A model generated the notes under the pieces. That model ran no database searches. It was not told the origin of the DNA and worked only from the letters and a program-made list of their open reading frames with translations. A stretch of 64,000 bases of DNA from Paenibacillus chitinolyticus NBRC 15660 (lineage in GTDB: Bacteria; Bacillota; Bacilli; Paenibacillales; NBRC-103111): assembly GCF_000739915.1 (NCBI RefSeq), contig NZ_BBJT01000004.1, positions 1 to 64,000 on the forward strand, in the 5' to 3' direction. The stretch's first letter is position 1. Each line of letters opens with the position of its first letter. Below are positions 7,275-11,930 of the stretch, piece by piece. A program made the translations under genes and the position numbers.

Positions 7275-8213
7275 TTACAGCTCGAAACGGGCCAGAGCGA
7301 TCTCCCGGAAAGCCTCTTTATTCGCGGAAGCGGCCGGAATTTCGGCAAACAGCTCGTCCGCATGGTGCAGATACAAGTTCTGAATCGTACGCGTGTATTC
7401 GATACAGCCGGAGTCCACGACATACTGGACGCACTGCGGCTTATGTTTTAAAAATTGAGGCTGGTCGATTTCACCGTTGTAATACTGCTGGATAACCGGG
7501 AATTCCGTGTCTTCCTCGTCCAGAAGGAACAGGACCGGAATGGTTTTCTTCTTCTGCACGAGATCGTTCTTGTAATCGAAGCGGAGCAGATCGCTCAAAT
7601 CGTTGTCAAGCTGAGCCATCAGTCCCATATAGACGGCCAGACGGTTCAGCTTGCCGACGGTATCTTCATCGGCGTTCGCATCCGTGCAGGCATAGCCCAT
7701 GTACAGAGCCAGTTGAACCAGGGTACCGGATTTGCGCTGAACCATTCCCACATAATCTTCTTCCGTCTGCACGGCATTCGTCACGTCCAGGTGCTGGCCG
7801 TTAATCGCCTCCGTAATAAATTCGCACACTTTGGCGGGATCGGGCAGAGGGGCGGCCGGGTATTGGCGGCGCAAGGCTCCGAGTTCGGAGACGGACGCCG
7901 TCACGAGTCCCGTGTATACGTTCAGCGCCTGCTCCTGGGGCACGGTCATCCACGGCTTCTCCGTATTGTCCTGATCCTGGATATCGTCCATGATATCCAG
8001 CGCAAGCAGCATAAGCTCGGTCAATGCGGCGGCCCGGTGAATGGCCGGATTGCTTCCGCCGAGCAGATCGTGAACACTCCAGGTGAGTTCCCCCCAGATG
8101 GAATGCTCTTCTTTCTTGTCCGCCACGCTTTTTAACAGCAATTCTTTCAAGGAAGGTACGGTAAAATAAGTTTCAATGAGATCCTGAATATCGCTCCAAA
8201 CTTCAGCCTTCAT
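7275..8213 (-). CDS. comQ: ComQ-like isoprenyl transferase (trans-isoprenyl diphosphate synthase fold)
   Basis: 312 residues. The first Asp-rich motif is DDIQDQD (residues 76-82) and the second is DNDLSDL (203-209), with KSGTL (161-165) and GQHLD (140-143) between them, as in all-alpha polyprenyl synthases. In Bacillus, ComQ prenylates the Trp of the ComX pre-peptide and takes part in its processing. The context decides the call: this is the third gene of a minus-strand operon after comP-like and comA-like genes (24-base gap), and a Trp-ending small peptide is encoded just beyond comP. A housekeeping prenyl synthase would show a canonical DDxxD second motif and isoprenoid neighbours, which are absent. 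The symbol is by context and motif, not by database match. Confidence 0.82.
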   Translation of the reverse strand: MKAEVWSDIQDLIETYFTVPSLKELLLKSVADKKEEHSIWGELTWSVHDLLGGSNPAIHRAAALTELMLLALDIMDDIQDQDNTEKPWMTVPQEQALNVYTGLVTASVSELGALRRQYPAAPLPDPAKVCEFITEAINGQHLDVTNAVQTEEDYVGMVQRKSGTLVQLALYMGYACTDANADEDTVGKLNRLAVYMGLMAQLDNDLSDLLRFDYKNDLVQKKKTIPVLFLLDEEDTEFPVIQQYYNGEIDQPQFLKHKPQCVQYVVDSGCIEYTRTIQNLYLHHADELFAEIPAASANKEAFREIALARFEL

Positions 8214-8237
8214 ACTGCACCGCCTTTTCGGGATTGG

Positions 8238-8861
8238 TCAACGCTTGATTTGTAAAAACTTCTCGATAGCCTGAGCCCGGGATTTCACCCCGAACTTGTC
8301 GTAGATCTTGCGCACGTAGTTATCCACCGACCGCTTGCTCATATGAATCTCGTCGGCAATCTGCTCATTGGTGGCGCCTTTGACGATCTGGTTCATGATG
8401 TTGATTTCCTCGTCGGTCAGACTCGACAAATCATCGTCCGGGTGGCTGAGCCTCATCTGATGCAGAAGAGAGATCGGTATGACGGACTGGCCTTCCTTCA
8501 AGGCCCGCATCATGTTGCGGATCTGGTCCTCGCTCGAGTCTTTGGACATGATGCCGCAAACGCCGAGCTCCAGAAGATTGTTCAGAATCGGCATATAATC
8601 GATGCCCGTGAAAATCACGATCTGAACGTCCTTGTTCAATTCCCTCATCTTGACCGCGACTTCCATGCCCGTTAAATCCGGAAGGTGAAAATCGAGAAAA
8701 ATGATGGAAGGATTGAGCTCCACCATCATTTCGACGCCCATTTCCCCGGTCGTCGCGACGCCGACCACTTGAATATTCTCCTCCTGCTCCAGAATAAACT
8801 TTGTGCCGTAAGCCATGGCGGGGTGGTCATCAACTATTAGGATATGTTGTATTTTGTTCAT
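8238..8861 (-). CDS. comA: ComA-like response regulator (NarL/LuxR type)
   Basis: 207 residues. A receiver domain (1-120) has the acidic pair DDH at 11-13 and the phosphoacceptor Asp57 in FLDFHLPD. A LuxR-type helix-turn-helix follows (about 146-205) with LTDEEINIMNQIVKGATN and the recognition helix MSKRSVDNYVRKIYDKFGVKSR. Its ATG overlaps the stop of the comP-like kinase gene (ATGA), so the two are translationally coupled partners. In the ComQXPA paradigm it would be phosphorylated by ComP when the pheromone binds, then activate target promoters. Its targets cannot be named here; no canonical TTGCGG-N4-CCGCAA box was noticed in the window. Confidence 0.88.
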   Translation of the reverse strand: MNKIQHILIVDDHPAMAYGTKFILEQEENIQVVGVATTGEMGVEMMVELNPSIIFLDFHLPDLTGMEVAVKMRELNKDVQIVIFTGIDYMPILNNLLELGVCGIMSKDSSEDQIRNMMRALKEGQSVIPISLLHQMRLSHPDDDLSSLTDEEINIMNQIVKGATNEQIADEIHMSKRSVDNYVRKIYDKFGVKSRAQAIEKFLQIKR

Positions 8862-11185
8862 GTCGGTATGCCTTCCTTTATAGGGATCTGAATTCTGACT
8901 TCAACGCCTTTACCCGTCATGGATTCCATTGTGAACTGCCCGTTTAGATGCAGGACCCGGCCTTTCATCTGCTCCAGGCCCATACCGGAACGGCCGACTG
9001 TCTTGCCTGACGACGAATTCGGTTTAAATCCGATACCATCGTCCTCATAGTGAATGGTAACTTCGTTTCCGCTTGCGACAAGCCGGATGAAAAGCCTGCT
9101 GGCCTGCGAATGTTTCTTCGCATTTGTAATCAATTCTTGAATGACGCGGAAAATATGGCGTTTCGCCTCATAATCGAGATTCTCCATCGCCGTCGTCTTT
9201 CCTTCCGTCACGAACTGAATTTCGTAATCGCCGAGACTCGATTCGGTATCCACGAGGTTCTGCAGGGCCCGGACAAGCCCGATATTTTTAAGCAGATAAG
9301 GGTTCAGCTCGAAGCAGCACTGCCGCAAATTCATATTGATCAGTTCCAGGTGATTCAAAATATCTTTAAGCTGCCGGTGTTCATCGGGATTAAGCATCTG
9401 CTTCTGAAGATTCTTCAATTTCCGTTGAACGAAGAAAATATCCTGCATCGTCGTATCGTGCAGATCGGTCGCGATCCGCGTCCGTTCCTTCTCCTGAAGG
9501 TCGAACATCGTTTTTCGGAACCAGACATATTCCTCGCTGCCTTCCTGGTTGGGAAGCTCAGAGGCCAGCTCCAGCAGCTTCATGTTCAGCTTGCGGATCA
9601 GATACAGGTTCTCCAGGCTGACGGATAAATACGAGATAATGAGGCTCAGCCACTGGGTTTCTTCCCGGTTCATAAACGTATTGGTTTTCTTTTTGGCCAT
9701 GACCAGGTAGCTTACGTATTCCTCGTGCCCTTTGATCAGCGTTCGCGTATATTCAGAGTCGAACCAGTCGCCGGTAAGGAACCGCCTTTTCACATCCTGC
9801 TCGTCAATATTTCCTTCGCTGATGATTTCCAGGGTTCCGGACGCATACTGGATCACGATGGCCCCGCCGTATACTTGTAAAATATCCACGATATCCACCA
9901 GCACGATATCCCTAAGCTCGCGGAAATTCGTAATGCTGCCGAGGGCGCTGGCGATTTTTTTGAGCGCCTGCTGCAGGTAATATTTCCTGGGAAACATGAT
10001 CTTCTCCAGACGAGTCGCGAAATACTCCAAGGAGTAGGTGACGAACGTCAGCACAACCATTGTGGTCGTAAAACTGATCACCATATGTTTCAGCGTCGCG
10101 TCTTTCTGGAAAATAAAATAATTGACGGCTACGAGCACGGCGCTTGGCAGAACGGAGATCACAGCCGTGTAAAAAACCCGCCGCAAAATAATGTCCAGAT
10201 CGTAAAGCTGCTTGGACATAATGAGATAGCCGAAGGTGACGGGGAAGAAGAGAATGAACCAGCCGCTGTAATAGGAAAATGCCAGTTCCGTCTGGAACAG
10301 AATCCTCGGGATAAAGTTCAGGAACGCCAGCGTACAGAAAGACAAGCCCAAACAAAATATAATCGTTTTAATGATGGTAAATAAATAATCGTTCGATTTT
10401 CTGTATTTCTTGTATAAATGGGCCAGCAAATAAATATTCATAATAAAGCCGGCTATGAAGAAACTCATCGTGCCGTAATAAATGATTTTGTAGAACTTGA
10501 AGTTAGCCTCCGGGAAAAACATGCTGAGCTGCAGCAGCGAAGAGAACCCGATGGCGGCGTACACGTATTTCATGTAACGCGTCGAGAAAATGAAATTGGA
10601 TCGTTCCTGGAAAAACATAATCAGAAACTGCAGGAACAGAAAAGGCAGGCACGCTACCAGGCTTGTCGTCATCCCCTTGGCGAGAATATCGGTTCGGGTC
10701 GACGCGCCGAGACACATGAAGATAAGCCCGATATTCAGAAAGACGGCGGATAGCATAAGGGCCGAGCGGGATTTGGAAAGCCGGCTGTAAATCAGAAACG
10801 CGAAAACAAAAGCAATGATCTCGCCCAGCAGGGATAAAATATCGACCGTCATGGACGTGGCGTGGTCCCGCGTCGTAAAGGTCAGTTCCTTGTCTCCGCG
10901 AAGCACGGTAATGACGTCCGCCTGCTCGATACTGTAATATTTTTTGACCGTCAGATGCTCTTCCGGCCTTTTCCCGTCTACGCTGAGGATCTTGTCATCC
11001 GGCTTGAATCCGATTTTGGAGCCTATGCTGACCCGCTCCAGTTGGGTGATTACCCATTCCTGCTTGGGGTTCTGATCGACGATAATACCCAGATACGGAT
11101 ACCGGTAAGCTACCCTTAAGCACCAGAACTGAAGGAAGATGATACCTATAAAAAACAATATCATCCATTTTTTTTTGGAATTCAT
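8858..11185 (-). CDS. comP: ComP-like membrane sensor histidine kinase
   Basis: 775 residues from the ATG with AGGTGG 5 bases upstream; a GTG nine bases earlier overlaps that site and is rejected. Layout: one membrane helix (6-25), an extracytoplasmic PDZ-like segment (about 35-110, SIGSKIGFKPDDKILSVDGK), a block of membrane helices to about residue 390, a cytoplasmic GAF-like region, and a HisKA_3/HATPase module. The phosphoacceptor is His576 in DLHDTTMQDI, the N box is ELITNAKKH (about 684), and G-box motifs EDDGIGF and GMGLEQMKGR follow. Length, the PDZ-like loop and the polytopic sensor are those of ComP, the kinase for the prenylated ComX pheromone. First gene of comP-comA-comQ; divergent from the peptide gene with 81 bases between starts. 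Confidence 0.88.
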   Translation of the reverse strand: MNSKKKWMILFFIGIIFLQFWCLRVAYRYPYLGIIVDQNPKQEWVITQLERVSIGSKIGFKPDDKILSVDGKRPEEHLTVKKYYSIEQADVITVLRGDKELTFTTRDHATSMTVDILSLLGEIIAFVFAFLIYSRLSKSRSALMLSAVFLNIGLIFMCLGASTRTDILAKGMTTSLVACLPFLFLQFLIMFFQERSNFIFSTRYMKYVYAAIGFSSLLQLSMFFPEANFKFYKIIYYGTMSFFIAGFIMNIYLLAHLYKKYRKSNDYLFTIIKTIIFCLGLSFCTLAFLNFIPRILFQTELAFSYYSGWFILFFPVTFGYLIMSKQLYDLDIILRRVFYTAVISVLPSAVLVAVNYFIFQKDATLKHMVISFTTTMVVLTFVTYSLEYFATRLEKIMFPRKYYLQQALKKIASALGSITNFRELRDIVLVDIVDILQVYGGAIVIQYASGTLEIISEGNIDEQDVKRRFLTGDWFDSEYTRTLIKGHEEYVSYLVMAKKKTNTFMNREETQWLSLIISYLSVSLENLYLIRKLNMKLLELASELPNQEGSEEYVWFRKTMFDLQEKERTRIATDLHDTTMQDIFFVQRKLKNLQKQMLNPDEHRQLKDILNHLELINMNLRQCCFELNPYLLKNIGLVRALQNLVDTESSLGDYEIQFVTEGKTTAMENLDYEAKRHIFRVIQELITNAKKHSQASRLFIRLVASGNEVTIHYEDDGIGFKPNSSSGKTVGRSGMGLEQMKGRVLHLNGQFTMESMTGKGVEVRIQIPIKEGIPT

Positions 11186-11266
11186 AAAATCCACCTTTTC
11201 GAGTACAAGTTTTTAAGGTAATATAGGAAATAAGTTTTATATTAATTTCAAAGTGAGGTGTCTGTC

Positions 11267-11434
11267 ATGCAAACGGCAGTACTATGGTCCCGTGAACTGA
11301 AGCAAGCTGTTAAAGAAGCTGTAAGTTCCAAAGCGGCTCCCGTATCCTCCGCATCCTTGTCCGAACTCGAAGTAGAATCACTGCAAAAAGCGGTTTCCAG
11401 CGAGAAACCGGAAGTTAGATATATGATGTGGTAA
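11267..11434 (+). CDS. comX: ComX-like pheromone pre-peptide, 55 aa, C-terminal Trp
   Basis: Too short for routine gene calling. It begins MQTAVLWSRELKQAVKEA and ends EKPEVRYMMW. An AGGTG ribosome binding site lies 7 bases before the ATG and a strong terminator follows 27 bases after the stop. ComX of Bacillus is a peptide of about 55 residues with a hydrophobic/charged helical leader and a prenylated Trp near the C-terminus. Here length, an acidic SELEVESLQ mid-section and a Trp as the very last residue fit that pattern, and kinase, regulator and prenyltransferase genes adjoin. A second Trp at position 7 lies in the leader. An A+T-rich stretch with TATATT (11238-11243) could be the -10; no clear -35 was seen. 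Divergent orientation relative to comP is unusual. Assignment is inference from context and form. Confidence 0.75.
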   Translation: MQTAVLWSRELKQAVKEAVSSKAAPVSSASLSELEVESLQKAVSSEKPEVRYMMW

Positions 11435-11461
11435 ACCTATCCACATCATAGCAAAAAACAA

Positions 11462-11506
11462 AAAGATTGCCTATCAGCCCACTGCTGGTAAGCAATCTTT
11501 TTTTAT
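11462..11506 (+). terminator. Rho-independent terminator after the ComX-like gene
   Basis: A stem AAAGATTGC / GCAATCTTT with an inner CAGC/GCTG pairing is followed by TTTTTTT on the plus strand. It shows that the peptide gene is a single-gene transcript. Confidence 0.88.
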
Positions 11507-11786
11507 AGTTCATATGCACTAGACTGCATATATGCGCAAGCTTGGTTGCGTACTTGTTCACGGAACAGGGCTGATTGCACCACAGAACACGATTTTAGGA
11601 CATCCGTTCCCGGGTACGTCTTTAATCCAGGACCTAATTTTTCCATTATTATCCTTCTTTTCTTGCGCATCAGTGAAAATTATTTTGCATCCTTGCGAAA
11701 CAAAATTGCGCTGATTCTGTAAGGTTTTAAAGATAATATAAAAGTATACATTTTTATCCATAGACCAGAACTTAGGAGTGTTATTT

Positions 11787-11930
11787 ATGACCCAGTACCA
11801 ATTCGATAACTTTTTTGAAGATCTTCTCAAAGATACGCTGATCGAAAAGTTCGAAACTGTGGAAGTACCACGGCTGCAGCTGGAATCCTCCTGGGAGAAA
11901 CTGCAGCAAAAATTAGAGATAAGCAACTAA
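11787..11930 (+). CDS. Small acidic protein of unknown function, 47 aa
   Basis: A 47-residue ORF from ATG with TAGGAGTG 6 bases upstream. It begins MTQYQFDNFFEDLLKD and ends WEKLQQKLEISN. It is amphipathic, lacks a signal peptide and has one Trp at residue 36. No family is recognised. It sits between the ComX-like gene and ytpI, behind the ComX terminator, so it needs its own promoter; the upstream 250 bases are A+T-rich (AAAGATAATATAAAAG near 11730). It could be linked to the quorum-sensing locus or be an unrelated small cytosolic protein. The coding claim rests on the ribosome binding site and protein-like composition only. Confidence 0.5.
   Translation: MTQYQFDNFFEDLLKDTLIEKFETVEVPRLQLESSWEKLQQKLEISN

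Follow-up and report, generated by a model that had tools for sequence, protein, structure and literature searches.

The comQXPA quorum-sensing locus of Bacillus subtilis and its relatives carries comQ, comX, comP and comA in this order on one strand (PMC4008528). In B. cereus strains and in Lysinibacillus fusiformis, unusual com-like loci were described whose hypothetical comX is encoded on the opposite strand (Figure 4A in PMC4008528). In 2014, a survey of the genomes of Paenibacillus polymyxa reported no comQXPA homologues (PMC4209062), and in the census P. curdlanolyticus appears only among the unusual, hypothetical cases (PMC4008528). Here, we analyzed 64,000 nt of Paenibacillus chitinolyticus NBRC 15660 (contig NZ_BBJT01000004.1, positions 1 to 64,000), the whole of which is referred to as the window. 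Unlike in B. subtilis, the comX-like precursor gene (X) of the window is divergent, and the comQ-like prenyltransferase gene (Q) comes last, behind the genes of the comP-like kinase (P) and the comA-like regulator (A). As the canonical order on one strand was not found at the window locus, we filed the locus as a comQXPA-like variant and not as canonical comQXPA. It very probably encodes a quorum-sensing circuit of the ComQXPA type, with its genes in a divergent layout.

Organization of the locus

The features of the locus are as follows:

7275–8213, minus strand: comQ-like prenyltransferase (PTase), 312 aa, final gene of the operon (PF00348, 2e-14)
8238–8861, minus strand: comA-like response regulator of the NarL/LuxR type, 207 aa, Asp57 (Response_reg and GerE)
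8858–11185, minus strand: comP-like histidine kinase, 775 aa counted from ATG 11185 (Pfam and AlphaFold secondary structure)
10865–11098, minus strand: PDZ-like domain in the TM1-TM2 loop, candidate ligand-binding domain (weak Pfam PDZ match, 0.006; beta-rich segment)
11186–11266, no strand: divergent intergenic region between the peptide and kinase genes, 81 nt (sequence)
11219–11224, plus strand: predicted -10 element (TAATAT) of the peptide gene, 42 nt 5' of the start codon
11267–11434, plus strand: comX-like precursor, 55 aa, C-terminal Trp (...EKPEVRYMMW) (relatives and hhalign)
11460–11502, plus strand: intrinsic terminator of the peptide gene (folding energy)
9650–11416, no strand: pherotype cassette comprising the peptide gene, the intergenic region and the sensor half of the kinase gene (divergence from HGH0039)

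The initial annotation had placed comP-, comA- and comQ-like genes in a single minus-strand operon, and both the sequence and the Pfam matches agree with this. All four families are present and co-located, Q, P and A by Pfam and X by remote profile homology. The ATGA overlap of comP and comA, His576 of the kinase and, by count, Asp57 of the regulator were borne out, as was the presence of DDIQDQD and DNDLSDL in the 312-aa PTase. The 55-aa ORF ending in Trp was likewise found on the opposite strand, 81 nt from the comP ATG. This spacing depends on the start codon of the kinase gene, which by eye is most likely ATG 11185 (with AAGGTGG upstream) rather than GTG 11194; with this start, the conserved histidine is residue 576, and exactly 81 nt separate the gene from the peptide ATG at 11267.

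The kinase matched HisKA_3 (2.6e-6) and HATPase_c (5e-14). Its plan comprises a PDZ-like domain, a polytopic membrane domain, a linker domain, HisKA_3 with His576, and HATPase_c. Ten transmembrane helices were counted by hand on the helices predicted by AlphaFold, in a model of moderate confidence (pLDDT 75) in which residues 37–107 form the beta-rich, PDZ-like segment. Thus, the window kinase combines the ten-TM sensor, PDZ-like loop, HisKA_3 and HATPase_c that define ComP. The regulator, which is encoded beside comP, matched Response_reg (1.2e-20) and GerE (7.9e-16), and its nearest sequence in the PDB was NarL. It is of the ComA type by context and not by best match, its sequence being of a generic NarL type.

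A promoter and a terminator belonging to the peptide gene alone, as initially annotated, were also supported. An extended -10 motif, TGnTATA(A/C)T, was found in 38 of 61 relatives versus 0.5 expected by shuffling, most often 39–41 nt 5' of the peptide start; the window copy matches this motif more weakly than the copies of the relatives. When words were counted in the region between X and P, the -10 element emerged, but no clear regulator site. The terminator folds with −21.4 kcal/mol (z −6.3), and none of 200 shuffles was equally good. Between the comX terminator and the gene that follows, positions 11540–11637 are hypervariable, with 57–77% identity between sister strains that are about 96% identical around them, and have no conserved frame. 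An ORF at 11503–11646 on the minus strand, considered as a second peptide gene, was rejected, as its frame is lost in the sister strains.

Gene order and flanking genes in relatives

The order of the genes was initially described as a rearrangement. The difference from the one-strand comQ-comX-comP-comA order stood, but a rearrangement specific to this genome did not, as the divergent layout is standard in the sampled Paenibacillus/Cohnella/Chengkuizengella clade. The prenyltransferase was found by protein search in 33 of 60 relatives, and a scan of named genomes yielded 79 loci, nearly all of them in these three genera. Their gene orders formed two clean classes, P-A-Q and Q-P-A. Collinear loci of other Bacilli and of the sister Paenibacillaceae family served as the comparison set, standing in for the B. 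subtilis locus.

Conservation of the peptide ORF beside the kinase gene, on which the initial reading depended, was confirmed: of 86 P-(A-)Q loci searched with an HMM built from divergent peptides, 81 had a homologue on the opposite strand, and no locus had one on the same strand. In three of the five loci without a peptide (L035, L053 and L067), the kinase match ends at or near the end of a contig. The consensus of the precursors reads MltIqlsPqLh.aVh.LK ... slsLS..Es.Al.ktF ... W(x). The Trp is the last residue in 20 of the 81 precursors, second to last in 60 and third to last in one, so that it lies within the final two residues in 80. An ORF scan (35–80 aa, a Shine-Dalgarno-like site accompanying the start codon, Trp among the last two residues) applied as a control upstream of other long ORFs in the same loci gave only 4 hits in 688, three of which were further true gene copies. 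This rate of under 1% indicates that the conserved divergent peptide is not due to chance. Two loci (L041 and L079) contain two tandem X-P pairs with different peptides, and two Chengkuizengella loci (L101 and L102) have two extra tandem comP-like kinase genes upstream of X-P-A-Q, with no detectable peptide gene of their own.

Clustering of the flanking ORFs unexpectedly revealed that 43 of the 86 divergent loci, but 0 of 98 collinear ones, have a gene for an Sda-like sporulation inhibitor downstream of X. The flanks compared were mostly 10 kb for Sda-bearing loci and 5 kb for most collinear loci, with most Sda genes lying within 1 kb of X. Such genes occur among loci L031–L109 (in L045, for example, 222 nt after comX). 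The Sda-like ORF was on the X strand in all 42 comparisons, 20 of the 36 distinct flanking contexts contained it, and two examples passed the Pfam cut-off. As genomes of this bacterial family mostly have one to three copies of Sda, chance co-location is unlikely. These observations would fit a signal circuit directly devoted to the timing of sporulation, in which X or A controls the neighboring kinase inhibitor Sda and the link has been lost, or acts in trans, in the window. However, no Sda gene lies downstream of X in the window, the two Sda matches of its genome being on other contigs; the flanks were unequally sampled, and co-location is not regulation. We regard a sporulation-timing role as possible, but less likely than not.

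A 47-aa ORF on the plus strand (11787–11930, MTQYQFDNFFEDLL...) has no Pfam match and is conserved in the genus, with relatives at L047, L055, L058, L061, L068 and L096. It appears to flank this chromosomal site, and is unlikely to be a part of the system, as a relative also adjoins a solo comQ without X, P and A at the same site in P. eucommiae. Solo comQ genes, lacking X, P and A, occupy the same chromosomal site in L047 and L058, and the genomes concerned contain other comQ-type loci. The neighbors of the solo comQ in L047 are SpxR-like and YtrI-like.

Covariation of the precursor and the sensor

The window and the corresponding region of Paenibacillus sp. HGH0039 are about 96% identical, except for a sharply bounded block of 1.8 kb that is only 68% identical. 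The edges of this block, 11416 and 9650, enclose the peptide gene through the end of the sensor half. Divergence is 32% in the block, 5.7% outside it in the same stretch, and 3.8% over the remainder of the alignment. An equivalent block was seen between P. lutrae and FJAT-26967 at 11130–10420. HGH0039 and P. lutrae have the peptide tail EVRYIMW in common, and over residues 1–130 of the sensor HGH0039 is 72% identical to P. lutrae versus 56% to the window, whereas its Q is 77% identical to that of P. lutrae versus 99% to that of the window. Similarly, members of the P. tyrfis/ehimensis/oleatilyticus group are 93–100% identical in Q, A and the kinase part but only 55–82% identical in the sensor N-terminus where the peptides differ; in the one pair with 95% peptide identity, the sensor N-termini are 96% identical. 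One genome (G655) has two divergent loci with Q proteins 96% identical and peptides 48% identical.

In 76 close pairs, which are only partly independent of one another, the partial rank correlation between peptide and sensor identity was 0.54 after the identities of A, Q and the kinase part had been removed, and none of 300 permutations gave a value as high. In the same pairs, the partial correlation of the peptide with Q was −0.45, that is, there was no positive tracking. The precursor and the sensor show pherotype diversification, and the peptide covaries with the sensor, whereas comQ shows no such covariation.

In collinear comQXPA loci, comQ diverges together with the sensor. On a few collinear pairs, the decoupling of the enzyme in the divergent layout was not significant (p 0.06 and 0.12), and 60 further loci were then added to test it. 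With disjoint pairs, and by statistics that ignore phylogeny, the median difference between A and Q identity was 12.8 points in collinear loci (31 pairs) versus 6.0 in divergent loci (19 pairs, p 0.013), and, among sensor-switched pairs, 18.8 (17 pairs) versus 5.0 (16 pairs, p 0.0013). As comQ varies with the sensor only in collinear loci, its relocation accompanies a two-gene specificity cassette, and the enzyme in the divergent layout is apparently pherotype-neutral.

By analogy with ComQXPA (PMC4008528, PMC9620489), from which we infer prenylation, secretion, ligand binding, phosphotransfer and targets, the circuit would operate as follows. The 55-aa precursor X would be made from its own promoter, and Q, expressed with the receptor, would prenylate the Trp of X, which is the C-terminal residue or adjoins it. 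A protease and an exporter would then release a short prenyl-Trp peptide, which would bind the polytopic, PDZ-bearing sensor half of P, so that P would phosphorylate A at Asp57 and A would switch on its target genes. Specificity would reside in X and the 5' half of the P gene, exchanged as one block between strains, with Q and A common to all pherotypes. A broader reading, which we hold tentatively and a little below even confidence, is that of a clade-wide ComQXPA lineage with a precursor below the reach of Pfam, in which relocation of comQ made the enzyme pherotype-neutral, a new pherotype arises by replacement of one contiguous two-gene cassette of comX and the comP sensor half, and the sporulation checkpoint gene sda is physically coupled to the locus in half of the members.

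Families of the precursor and the enzyme, and comparison with known systems

The ComX model PF05952 matched neither the window X nor any other sequence of its own genome, nor did Pfam report anything for the 55-aa peptide, with NHLP and other family models giving no match. The profile of the divergent X family nevertheless aligned with that of the collinear ComX family with an hhalign probability of 90%, as against a maximum of 5% in 60 column shuffles and 0.2% for the reversed profile. On these profiles, X is a remote relative of ComX, below the detection of PF05952. Surveys relying on the Pfam ComX model, which misses this precursor, would not count such loci.

Profile-profile comparison of Q gave a probability of 100% with collinear ComQ (E 2e-80, 302 columns), 98.4% with housekeeping synthases (E 1e-14), and 9% with relatives of PalQ (BLAST E 0.57). 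In a tree of 100 prenyltransferases, the HepT and FPP-synthase-type proteins of the same genome lie outside all ComQ-type sequences; the grouping of the PTase with housekeeping synthases that the initial annotation had considered was thus not observed. A more careful tree of 59 sequences, from which these own-genome proteins were left out, separated 23 collinear ComQ proteins from 36 others with a support of 100/100. The latter are 32 divergent and four collinear proteins, and the loci of these four encode a precursor with a divergent-type leader (MWSPQLKE...). As this collinear subclade is nested among divergent Q proteins, the order changed at least twice by parsimony. The IPP-site motif GGKRxRP is absent from Q, and GGKRLRP/SGKRIRP was found only in the FPP-synthase-type proteins of the genome. 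Q has an intact FARM (DDIQD) and a degenerate SARM (NDLSD), with NDxxD in place of DDxxD as in collinear ComQ. A Gln before the SARM was rejected as a mark of Trp prenyltransferases, as it also occurs in the housekeeping FPP synthase. The AlphaFold model of Q (pLDDT 93.8) matched Ord1, a Trp prenyltransferase, in Foldseek with a TM score of 0.77, and many IDS enzymes were among the top matches. On profiles and trees, Q belongs with ComQ, and neither with the housekeeping prenyl-diphosphate synthases nor with the PalQ family.

The PalQ family is relevant because Paenibacillus alvei, which belongs to the same genus group, combines a kinase with a prenyltransferase and a precursor ending in Trp (PMC10853753). 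Q could accordingly be a PalQ-family enzyme and X a PalX-type precursor of a RiPP system, whose product may be a secondary metabolite and not a signal. This is very improbable: PalQ-type enzymes beside NHLP precursors have no detectable homology to Q, which largely refutes it, X has no match to NHLP models, and covariation of X and the sensor of the pherotype type fits a receptor ligand. Even less credible is that Q is an ordinary polyprenyl diphosphate synthase with a two-component system as an accidental neighbor, as suggested by PF00348, the isoprenoid-synthase fold and the IDS enzymes among its structural matches, since separate HepT and FPP synthase genes are present elsewhere in the genome, Q has the ComQ-like motifs described above, and Q is linked to X and P throughout the clade.

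An exact search of 204 genomes for the published PalX core DNVRRFFW found none, and relatives of PalQ were reached via NHLP precursors ending in Trp or in Trp plus one or two residues. They have the FARM at D89 and a Gln three residues before a DDxxD SARM, which is the published PalQ spacing. Paenibacillaceae precursors with an NHLP leader (L300–L329) often have such ends, and in six of these loci that were read further, a PalQ-type ORF lies nearby. Judged by such sequences, PalX-like systems seem to be much more widespread than the one characterized example suggests. PalQ-type and ComQXPA-type systems coexist in some Paenibacillaceae genomes (e.g., G826, G777 and G658).

The ComQXPA-type reading of the window locus can be set against four described systems. 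The PalQ-PalX-PalP system of P. alvei (PMC10853753) resembles it in the genus, a precursor with a C-terminal Trp, a prenyltransferase of the isoprenoid-synthase superfamily and a kinase nearby. However, PalQ is of a separate enzyme family without profile-level homology to Q, and PalX has an NHLP leader. PalQ is also strict for a terminal Trp, as against what is read for Q and X: most divergent relatives carry one residue after the Trp, and the window precursor none. The Trp farnesyltransferase Ord1 (PDB 9v4g and 9v4i) shares its fold with Q (with the TM score given above), as well as the Gln three residues before the SARM, but it is only 16–17% identical to Q and, in the cited passage of PMC13290415, has free Trp as its substrate.

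The unusual loci of B. cereus and L. fusiformis also have a short Trp-containing ORF opposite a comQ-comP-comA set. According to the text of PMC4008528, this ORF lies between comQ and comP, whereas the window X lies outside, with comQ at the far end, and the window arrangement is conserved across the sampled relatives. With the comQXPA locus of B. subtilis (PMC4008528), the window locus shares a ComQ-family prenyltransferase, a small Trp precursor, a ten-TM PDZ kinase, a LuxR-type regulator, and hypervariability of the peptide and the sensor; the architecture of its kinase is also that of B. amyloliquefaciens ComP (PMC9620489). It differs in that comQ is outside the variable block and the precursor is below the PF05952 cut-off. 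The divergent layout provides a natural experiment in pherotype evolution, with the same four functions and comQ either inside or outside the variable block, from which a single enzyme is predicted to be capable of maturing foreign precursors. In addition, the linkage to sda offers an initial, concrete clue as to which functions the signal may govern in spore-forming bacteria other than Bacillus.
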